In this document: positions 3,836 to 5,668 of the stretch, in pieces | How positions within the stretch are numbered: position 1 is the first letter of the stretch | Layout: every line of letters starts with the position of its first letter | Assembly: GCF_900182935.1 (NCBI RefSeq) | Contig: NZ_FXUE01000003.1 | Location: 248,001 to 312,000, forward strand | Direction: 5' to 3' | DNA length: 64,000 nucleotides | Origin: Fibrobacter sp. UWB10 | GTDB lineage: Bacteria > Fibrobacterota > Fibrobacteria > Fibrobacterales > Fibrobacteraceae | Made by a program: the position numbers and the translations under genes | The notes under the pieces: generated by a model | The model's input: the letters and a program-made list of their open reading frames with translations, nothing else | What the model was told of the DNA's origin: nothing | The model's database searches: none

Positions 3836-3880
3836 GGTGTGAATATAGAAATATTTGATGAAATGAAATGACTATACAAT

Positions 3881-3911
3881 CACACTGATTCGAAATGCCT
3901 AACGGCATTTC
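3881..3911 (-). repeat. GTTA-loop hairpin repeat, copy A
   Basis: On the minus strand: GAAATGCC, loop GTTA, GGCATTTC, then tail GAATCAGTGTG. The arms pair perfectly over 8 bp. Same organisation as copies B, C and D around the neighbouring lipoprotein gene. Confidence 0.75.
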
Positions 3912-3923
3912 AGAAAATAAATA

Positions 3924-3956
3924 GATTTTGTGTTAACAAAATCGAATTCGTGTGAC
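3924..3956 (+). repeat. GTTA-loop hairpin repeat, copy B
   Basis: GATTTTGT, loop GTTA, ACAAAATC, then tail GAATTCGTGTGAC. The arm sequence differs from copy A but still pairs over 8 bp; loop and tail are retained. It lies head to head with copy A. Confidence 0.75.
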
Positions 3957-4007
3957 ATTAAACTAAATTTGCTTAGTCCGAATTCATGAGGTTACCGGAG
4001 GTCTTCT

Positions 4008-5087
4008 GTGAAATATTTTGCTGCGCTGTTGCTTTCGGCAGTTTTGTTTGTCGCTTGTAGTGGTGAATCTAGTAGCTCCGCTCCCGATCCAATCGGTGAA
4101 ATCTCGTCAAGTAGCAATGAGGCCCTTGGTTCCAGTTCCTCGGCAACAGAAAAGAAATCTTCTAGTTCCGTAAGTGGTAAGAATAGTAGCTCGAGTGTGG
4201 TTGAATCGAGTAGTAGCGGGCGAAATTCTAGCAGCAGTTCTGCGATTTTGTTTAAACAATGTGAAGAAGGTGATACTGTTATAAGTGAAACGGCTTTTAA
4301 AGTGTTTTATTATCGTTGTCAAGATAATGAGTGGGTTCTTGATTCTACGGTGAATGTGGTGAAACCCAAGGTCTATCCGAACATGGATAGCGTGTTTAAT
4401 CCGGCTGTGACTTATGGCTCGTTTAGGGATCCTCGTGATGGAAAGGTTTACAAGACGGTTCAATACTATATGGAGGTCCAAAGTGGCAACACTACTGTCA
4501 TTGATTCTTTTACGGTGATGACTCAGAATCTGAATTACGCTGATACGATAATCGATAGTACAACGACTGTTTTTGACGATTCAAAAGTGGAAAAACGTTG
4601 TTACAACGATGATCCTTGGTATTGTGACAATTATTTTGGTGGACTTTATACTTGGAGTGAGGCTTTGGGGCTTCCTAAAGTGTGTGATAGTGTCGGTGTT
4701 GCTGATAACTCAAAATGCAATGTTAAACTTGGCGACGATGCCAAGGTGCAGGGAGTGTGTCCGGAAGGTTGGCATGTGATGAATGAAGCTGAATGGAAAC
4801 ATTTTGCGTTCCCACGAGACATAGACGTGAGCTATGCATTGTTGTCCCGTGCTGTATGGGAGAACGATAGAAATACGAACTCTAGTGGATTGTCTGTGTT
4901 GCCTTATGGGGATGGAACGTATGATTCTCAAAACAGCATGTTTTGGATGGCCCATGAATTTAAAGAAAAACCTAAAATGGGCGGTGCGTTTATGATCAAT
5001 GGTTTCAGTACTTCTTCAGCGAGCTCAAAATATGGGTCCCTTTACGTCCGTTGCGTAATGGATGAAGGCGACACTTTCATTCAATAA
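4008..5087 (+). CDS. Ser-rich lipoprotein with Fibrobacter major paralogous domain
   Basis: 359 residues, GTG start behind a strong ribosome site (CCGGAGG). The lipoprotein signal ends LFVACSG, with Cys17 as the expected lipidated residue. Residues about 20-80 are a low-complexity linker of SSSS blocks (SSSSVSGKNSSSSVVESSSS). The rest matches the Fib_succ_major type (TIGR02145/PF09603-like): a DPRDGKVYKTV motif, then VMTQNLNYA, WSEALGLP, VCPEGWHVMNEAEWKHF, and a final LYVRCVMD. Members are numerous in Fibrobacter and are thought to be cell-surface proteins of unknown function. The gene stands alone between hairpin repeats A/B and C/D. An outer-membrane surface location is inferred from family and signal, not shown. 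Confidence 0.88.
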   Translation: MKYFAALLLSAVLFVACSGESSSSAPDPIGEISSSSNEALGSSSSATEKKSSSSVSGKNSSSSVVESSSSGRNSSSSSAILFKQCEEGDTVISETAFKVFYYRCQDNEWVLDSTVNVVKPKVYPNMDSVFNPAVTYGSFRDPRDGKVYKTVQYYMEVQSGNTTVIDSFTVMTQNLNYADTIIDSTTTVFDDSKVEKRCYNDDPWYCDNYFGGLYTWSEALGLPKVCDSVGVADNSKCNVKLGDDAKVQGVCPEGWHVMNEAEWKHFAFPRDIDVSYALLSRAVWENDRNTNSSGLSVLPYGDGTYDSQNSMFWMAHEFKEKPKMGGAFMINGFSTSSASSKYGSLYVRCVMDEGDTFIQ

Positions 5088-5098
5088 AGTCTTAACAA

Positions 5099-5131
5099 GA
5101 AATCACGTTAGTGATTTCGAATCAGTGTGAC
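5099..5131 (+). repeat. GTTA-loop hairpin repeat, copy C
   Basis: GAAATCAC, loop GTTA, GTGATTTC, tail GAATCAGTGTGAC, starting 12 nt after the lipoprotein stop. An 8-bp perfect stem with arms different from A and B, so pairing is preserved while sequence is not. It may also act in transcription termination, though no T-run follows. Confidence 0.75.
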
Positions 5132-5144
5132 AATTATATTGTAA

Positions 5145-5177
5145 AAATTGCCGTTAGGCATTTCCAATCCGTGTGGC
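5145..5177 (+). repeat. GTTA-loop hairpin repeat, copy D (imperfect)
   Basis: AAATTGCC, loop GTTA, GGCATTTC, tail CAATCCGTGTGGC. The inner 4 bp pair perfectly; the outer part is degraded. The right arm equals the right arm of copy A. Confidence 0.6.
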
Positions 5178-5190
5178 CTTTTTAGCTAGC

Positions 5191-5232
5191 ATCAAAGGAG
5201 GTGCCGGATCGGGTCCGGCATGACAATTGGGA
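5191..5232 (+). repeat. Dispersed 'GTGCCGG...CCGGCATGAC' repeat, copy 1
   Basis: ATCAAAGGAGGTGCCGGATC followed by GGGTCCGGCATGACAATT. The centre forms a TGCCGGA/TCCGGCA hairpin. A second copy lies at 5314-5356. This is the common palindromic intergenic type seen in many bacterial genomes. With copies C and D and the second copy it fills the gene-free stretch 5088-5392. Confidence 0.7.
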
Positions 5233-5289
5233 CGGGGCGTTGCGGGGTGCCCCCGCTAGAGAGGGTGGAGAGCAACGAAGTGCGAACCA

Positions 5290-5309
5290 GGGAGAGACTT
5301 CTCCCTTTT
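5290..5309 (+). terminator. Possible rho-independent terminator
   Basis: GGGAGA GACT TCTCCC followed by TTTT. A 6-bp perfect stem with a short T-run, located between the two dispersed repeats and before the 91-residue protein gene. It would end transcription coming from the lipoprotein gene. Confidence 0.5.
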
Positions 5310-5313
5310 CATT

Positions 5314-5356
5314 CATCAAAGGAGGTGCCGGGTCCATGCCCGGCATGACAATCGGG
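5314..5356 (+). repeat. Dispersed 'GTGCCGG...CCGGCATGAC' repeat, copy 2
   Basis: ATCAAAGGAGGTGCCGGGTC followed by CATGCCCGGCATGACAATC. Same ends as copy 1, with a changed centre that still pairs (TGCCGGG/CCCGGCA). Confidence 0.7.
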
Positions 5357-5392
5357 CAGGAGGCGTCCCCCTTTTGTTGCTATATTTGCGGT

Positions 5393-5668
5393 ATGCCGTT
5401 TTTTACCAAAAGCAATCTTGTGGACTTGCGGGCGGAAGCCGAGCAACTTTCGATTTGCGTGGAGCATTTCTTGTATGCGTCCGAGCGCGTGGTCGAGGGC
5501 GACTACAAAACGAAGGGCTTTTACGACAACTGTATCGAAAAATGTAATGGAAGACTCAAGGCGATTCATTTTTTGATGGAGTCCATTCGTCAGGATAGGC
5601 CTGTTTCAGAAGAAGAACTCCAGGAAACGCTTCCGGATTTTTTAAATTGCAAGAAAGATGCTAAATAA
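5393..5668 (+). CDS. Small conserved-looking protein of unknown function
   Basis: 91 residues from the ATG at 5393 (MPFFTKSNLVDLRAEAEQLS); the frame is open further upstream but would read through the palindromic repeats, so this start is preferred. The protein is soluble and predicted mostly helical, with two Cys (CIEKCNGRLK) and an acidic C-terminal half. The end overlaps the rsgA start by 11 nt, which suggests translational coupling. I do not recognise a family. Confidence 0.6.
   Translation: MPFFTKSNLVDLRAEAEQLSICVEHFLYASERVVEGDYKTKGFYDNCIEKCNGRLKAIHFLMESIRQDRPVSEEELQETLPDFLNCKKDAK

Follow-up and report, generated by a model that had tools for sequence, protein, structure and literature searches.

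Homing endonuclease genes of the PD-(D/E)XK type are small, nuclease-only selfish genes. The target cruciform of DGRs has an 8-bp stem and a 4-nt loop, and its stem sequence is free. REP sequences and REPINs with their RAYTs are short dispersed hairpin repeats that replicate mainly as inverted doublets with conserved outer tags, presumably through one gene acting in trans (PMC3116915). Intervening sequences (IVS) of 23S rRNA are accompanied by an S23 protein and include the Coxiella IVS of 428 nt (PMC4990558). The hairpin repeats that flank a lipoprotein gene in the rumen bacterium Fibrobacter sp. UWB10 share features with each of these systems. These hairpins probably form the two ends of a very small mobile element of ~455 bp, with GxxExxY as its only gene. 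The element was previously unrecognised, and the hairpins in UWB10 would mostly be gutted copies of it.

Hairpin copies in the window and in the UWB10 genome

The window, a 64-kb stretch of the UWB10 genome, contains four matches to the repeat pattern, copies A to D (Table 1), against 0.10 expected from shuffles. The sequence-only reading had described perfect 8-bp stems around a GTTA loop in A, B and C, two copies on either side of the lipoprotein gene, and a head-to-head arrangement of A and B. All three descriptions are borne out, with A and B lying hairpin to hairpin and their tails pointing outward. Copies C and D form a tandem right-end block of a type that recurs at several loci with a spacing of 46-47 bp. 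The DNA fold z-score is -5.2 at copy A and -1.0 at copy D. The most likely reading of the A-B unit is that a hairpin-ended GxxExxY element was gutted to give this non-autonomous derivative, because inverted-pair units are common and deletion intermediates keep parts of the GxxExxY gene. The same intergenic region also holds a second REP-like family, and Fibro-purF RNA was identified in the window.

Table 1. Coordinates of hairpin copies, units and related features (window positions unless a locus is named).
Feature	Location	Strand	Length	Description
Copy A	3879-3911	minus		GAAATGCC-GTTA-GGCATTTC + tail GAATCAGTGTGAT; perfect 8-bp stem; left end of A-B unit and outward left end of lipoprotein cassette
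Copy B	3924-3956	plus		GATTTTGT-GTTA-ACAAAATC + tail GAATTCGTGTGAC; perfect 8-bp stem; right end of A-B unit
Copy C	5099-5131	plus		GAAATCAC-GTTA-GTGATTTC + tail GAATCAGTGTGAC; perfect 8-bp stem; starts 12 bp past lipoprotein stop codon
Copy D	5145-5177	plus		AAATTGCC-GTTA-GGCATTTC + tail CAATCCGTGTGGC; decayed stem, 6/8 pairs
A-B unit	3879-3956		78 bp	Inverted pair
Lipoprotein gene	4008-5087	plus		FISUMP domain (PF09603/TIGR02145); between outward-facing ends A and C/D
menA-rsgA interval	3836-5657; also L195-L198			FISUMP cassette hotspot
Second REP-like family	5197-5226, 5317-5349			Repeat CAAAGGAGGTGCCGG..CCGGCATGACAAT
Y1 gene, UWB10 genome	L031 1471-1908			Sole Y1 gene
Complete unit, Treponema MB2.76	L280 617-1069		453 bp	GxxExxY between outward ends
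Complete unit, G005	L102 5739-6203		465 bp	GxxExxY between outward ends
Copies with alternative tail	L116 3096, L124 2665, L125 2904, L127 2684, L091 3891, L095 16732, L136 2665			Tail SRATAAATGCGTA
Nested end region	L263 6002-6317			ACAAACGGATTTG-type end region within a GTTA-type unit
GxxExxY gene, Sphingomonas plasmid	L446 1440-1905			Within fab operon (fabD-fabG); imperfect inverted repeats at borders

Genome-wide, the pattern has 44 matches, compared with 3 for a reversed control pattern. A covariance model recovers 55 full-length copies in the UWB10 genome at E<=1.3e-4, and the number of matches rises to 60 when the cutoff is E<=0.01. In an alignment of 29 copies, 95.8% of cells pair, double changes occur at 7 of the 8 pairs, and the covariation score is 0.70, against 0.19 for shuffles and at most 0.30 when the partner is slid. 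The stems are diverse, with 71 distinct 5' arms among 284 hairpins. Between orthologous flanks, the stem is kept in 52 comparisons and different in 44, and 88 of the column changes keep Watson-Crick pairing versus 36 that gain or lose pairing. The genome scan and covariance-model test proposed by the sequence-only reading therefore returned many copies rather than few, and stems that covary strongly rather than ceasing to pair. The results favour its suggestion that structure is under selection, more probably in the DNA than in the RNA. G-U pairs were considered as a means of separating RNA from DNA and dropped, because A-C mismatches read as G-U on the other strand and the excess falls at the outermost pair.

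Read from the outside, each end consists of GYCACACNGATTS followed by the 8-bp hairpin. Inverted pairs are frequent, with the hairpins inside and the conserved 13-nt tail outside (GYCACACNGATTS-hairpin...hairpin-SAATCNGTGTGRC); the loci examined contain 58 such units shorter than 200 bp. Distinct units below 400 bp (n=67) have a median length of 85 bp and mostly measure 71-140 bp. The perfect short stems and inverted pairs do not suggest an integron attC. A search by tail alone found cGNNAg or cGNAg loops in 197 of the 199 predicted hairpins beside intact tails (GTTA 178, GTA 13, GTGA 3, others single), a set partly collected with the GTTA pattern. Loci sampled by protein family, for which no GTTA pattern was used, have 35 GTTA loops, 9 GTA loops and no others. 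GNA and GNNA loops with G-C pairs form extraordinarily stable DNA mini-hairpins (PMC4686876), and their near-constant use here suggests folded single-stranded DNA as the substrate. Several copies have an alternative tail (Table 1), and at two of these loci (L124 and L125) an outer CAATCCGTGTGGC end lies ~75 bp further out, giving a second end architecture.

The same hairpins could be read as an RNA-level signal (a riboregulator, a terminator or a stability element) whose function makes it look like a repeat. The copies are intergenic and hairpin-forming, and T-rich DNA follows some of them when read from the tail strand. However, the family occurs upstream of genes, downstream of genes and between divergent genes in either orientation, its presence is patchy across species and phyla, and the hairpins have no Rfam match. 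The loops GTTA, GTCA, GCTA and GTA are not GNRA RNA loops and fit stable DNA loops instead. An intrinsic terminator, with a GC-rich stem and a T-run in gene orientation, was not called at any of A to D. An RNA-level role is thus very improbable.

The many dispersed hairpins, conserved tails and frequent inverted pairs agree with the earlier suggestion of a REP-like mobile element, but the expected Y1 partner is missing and the linked gene is GxxExxY. A true REP or REPIN family moved by a Y1 transposase (RAYT or IS200) would explain inverted hairpin pairs with conserved outer tags, and the UWB10 genome does contain one Y1 gene. However, this gene encodes a 145-aa IS200-like protein that has no relation to the hairpin family, and no copy of the repeat adjoins it. 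Furthermore, no Y1 transposase appears among the genes recurrent beside copies, and the tail is not GTAG/CGTC, the outer tag being GYCACACNGATTS. Movement by Y1 is largely refuted and retains hardly any probability.

The GxxExxY-bearing unit and signs of its movement

Across genomes, the genes that cluster near the hairpins encode FISUMP lipoproteins (in Fibrobacter), type I specificity subunits and GxxExxY. Several Fibrobacter loci (L101, L102, L104, L352, L353) have hairpin ends that run into, or directly adjoin, type I restriction specificity (hsdS) genes. Other Fibrobacter and Treponema carry a complete unit of ~455 bp, in which GYCACACNGATTS and a hairpin precede a single GxxExxY gene (~127 aa), and a second hairpin and SAATCNGTGTGRC follow it. 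The protein matches the GxxExxY profile (PF13366/TIGR04256) at E 1e-41 to 1e-44 and has a PD-(D/E)XK motif; the catalytic residues E28 and D68-X9-E78-L-K80 are invariant in five aligned proteins. A moderate-confidence structure model (mean pLDDT 73.5; the other four of five models did not exceed 50) weakly resembles PD-(D/E)XK nucleases, such as lambda exonuclease and the Cas4 protein SSO0001, with no PDB match below E = 0.001. A sequence search of the PDB with GxxExxY gave no match. The open-access literature searched contains just two passing mentions, with no report tying GxxExxY to mobility and no activity of any GxxExxY protein.

GxxExxY loci were also sampled by protein from Fibrobacter relatives, carrier genomes and 195 Treponema-family genomes. 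These ends lie on both sides of the gene in 12 of 50 loci; 11 of the resulting units measure 451-479 bp, and the twelfth measures 529 bp. Every GxxExxY locus in the Fibrobacter genomes searched (two in G005, one in G018 and a remnant in G029) adjoins these ends. Among hairpin-sampled loci with outward ends 200-1800 bp apart, the intervals enclose only GxxExxY (three, one a remnant), FISUMP (four) or no ORF (two), and one of the two intervals without an ORF holds a GxxExxY remnant. No GxxExxY gene is found in the UWB10 genome despite its 55 end copies, or in G003 despite 31. The UWB10 copies are therefore probably stranded, or may depend on passing sources. No GxxExxY was found in the phage collection.

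Several loci capture the element in different states. The CNNM-acyltransferase locus carries a complete element in F. succinogenes RUG10650 and, in G029, this element without the middle part of its gene (280 bp), whereas the locus is empty in G003, G009, G012 and G019. The flanks in this single full/empty comparison are too diverged, and no clean target-site duplication could be read. A second gutted gene occurs in Treponema (L283), where a 232-bp unit retains a broken C-terminal part of GxxExxY. In two pairs of loci (L352/L353 and L376/L427), the elements are ~97% identical and the flanks largely unrelated. In another pair (L366/L423), the element is 98% identical and both flanks are only ~80% identical.

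The distribution of the ends is also uneven. Within Fibrobacter, copies are patchy, with 55-60 in UWB10, 49 in another genome of the same species, 31 in G003, 15 in G005, 12 in G029, and few or none in most others. Outside the genus, no copies were found among the 60 relatives searched. In a pattern scan of GTDB genomes, the matches listed are mostly from Treponema of the rumen and gut, T. bryantii and T. saccharophilum among them; the others listed come from Fibrobacter and rumen Neisseriaceae MAGs, with single matches elsewhere. Many of the GTDB matches are likewise inverted pairs, and Fretibacterium also carries ends. Few changes beyond the minimum are needed to place the end families on the protein tree, in which Fibrobacter is nested in Treponema. 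As judged from these sequences, the end sequence follows the GxxExxY protein clade, and the element has been transferred across phyla, between Fibrobacter and Treponema.

Sequence comparison shows the repeat and its inverted-end architecture, the uniform gene-bearing unit, the full, deleted and empty states of one locus, derivatives with internal deletions in each of two phyla, units of near-identical sequence in differing surroundings, and an end family that tracks the protein clade. For the mobilisation itself, we infer that GxxExxY is responsible. The nuclease would recognise the ends as folded single-stranded or cruciform DNA, because the cGNNAg/cGNAg loop is near-constant, the stem is free but paired, and the tail is fixed. 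It may then cut at or beside the tail, with host repair or replication completing the insertion. Gutted copies such as A-B would be moved in trans.

FISUMP lipoprotein cassettes between the ends

In Fibrobacter, FISUMP genes are as frequent as GxxExxY between the ends, so GxxExxY itself could be cargo. This possibility leads to a different explanation, in which the hairpins are recombination boundaries that mainly shuffle FISUMP cassettes in Fibrobacter, with GxxExxY as a further cargo gene and some host enzyme as the agent. Of the 41 clusters in the genome, 15 have a FISUMP domain within 800 bp, compared with 1.6 expected. The interval between menA and the gene upstream of rsgA is a hotspot, with differing FISUMP-type lipoprotein genes in UWB10, its species-mate G061, G029 and G003, and no cassette in G009. 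Elsewhere, UWB10 has a FISUMP cassette with a hybrid left stem where G003 and G061 have an 89-bp unit, which indicates that exchanges can break within the hairpin. A FISUMP gene between two outward ends behaves as a cassette that can be replaced, either through end-mediated transfer or when the repeats recombine.

However, ordinary genes flank most Fibrobacter clusters. The ends also occur in Treponema, rumen Neisseriaceae MAGs and Fretibacterium, and no FISUMP cluster was seen at the Treponema hairpin loci. Additionally, the end family follows the GxxExxY clade, and sister clades own other inverted ends. Cassette shuffling as the main role is therefore unlikely, though it deserves more weight than an RNA signal or a Y1-driven family. 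The cassette boundary proposed in the sequence-only reading is partly borne out, for the FISUMP-associated clusters; as to the check that it suggested, copies do not always flank surface-protein genes.

Other GxxExxY clades and comparison with known systems

Inverted ends are not limited to the GTTA hairpins. An inverted repeat scoring at least 12 occurs in the flanks of 75% of 44 GxxExxY genes, versus 4% of 254 control genes; strict scoring misses imperfect ends (e.g., L446 and L356), and 75% is not a ceiling. Some GxxExxY loci are flanked by direct repeats or by no repeats (e.g., L440, L447, L441). A sister clade has ends made of ACAAACGGATTTG and a hairpin, with the same loop logic and a different tag (L371, L429, L433, L435, L436, L438), and one end region of this type is nested in a GTTA-type unit (Table 1). 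Genes of other clades are bracketed by other short inverted repeats of the CACAGAG, CGCAAAG, CACGAAA, AAAGAT and AATCAG types, often less than 50 bp from the gene (L349, L350, L351, L355, L361, L365, L372, L378, L415, L425, L437, L439, L442, L445). A literature search found nothing on the array repeats. On a Sphingomonas plasmid, a GxxExxY gene lies within the fab operon (Table 1).

A broader proposal, on which our judgement is evenly balanced, is that GxxExxY genes, which are widespread in bacteria, define a new class of minimal mobile elements and form their core, each element comprising a small PD-(D/E)XK nuclease and inverted ends without a transposase. Different clades would own different end repeats (GTTA hairpins, ACAAACGGATTTG hairpins, or arrays of the five other types), accounting for several short dispersed repeat families across phyla. 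If the GTTA-hairpin element is as proposed, a common protein family of hitherto unassigned role gains a concrete mobile-element function, and one of the smallest known gene-bearing mobile elements, lacking a recognised transposase, would be added. It would also provide a likely source for dispersed repeats ignored by annotators, show exchange between Fibrobacter and Treponema in the gut, and suggest how variable Fibrobacter lipoprotein cassettes get swapped. The fixed DNA-type loop and free stems make the hairpin-recognition mechanism directly testable.

Each known system matches the element in part. The similarity to DGR target cruciforms lies in the 8-bp stem, the 4-nt loop and the free stem sequence. 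However, copies are not confined to variable genes, and an RVT_1 search of the UWB10 genome was empty, leaving no reverse transcriptase for a DGR. As with PD-(D/E)XK homing endonuclease genes, one locus has an element 98% identical between flanks ~80% identical; unlike them, the element has no intron or intein, and it has hairpin ends and dispersed non-autonomous copies. The 23S rRNA IVS is also a selfish element of similar size with a single small ORF (PMC4990558). In contrast to the IVS, the present element is not in rRNA, encodes a nuclease-superfamily protein rather than S23p, and has many dispersed gutted copies.

The closest parallels are with REPINs and MITEs. Like REPINs with their RAYTs, the hairpins are extragenic palindromic repeats in many copies, with inverted doublets and conserved outer tags (PMC3116915). 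Unlike in that system, the linked gene encodes GxxExxY (PD-(D/E)XK) rather than a Y1 HUH transposase and lies inside the element, the tags are different, units of near-identical sequence turn up in unrelated surroundings, and the family is found in more than one phylum. As in the MITEs of insertion sequences, gutted internal-deletion derivatives share inverted ends with a gene-bearing parent; here, however, the parent is only ~455 bp and has no recognised transposase, and each end is a hairpin with a near-constant loop. Thus, while it departs from REP-RAYT in its tag and in the absence of Y1, and has no known transposase, the element works like a REPIN or a MITE with its parent.
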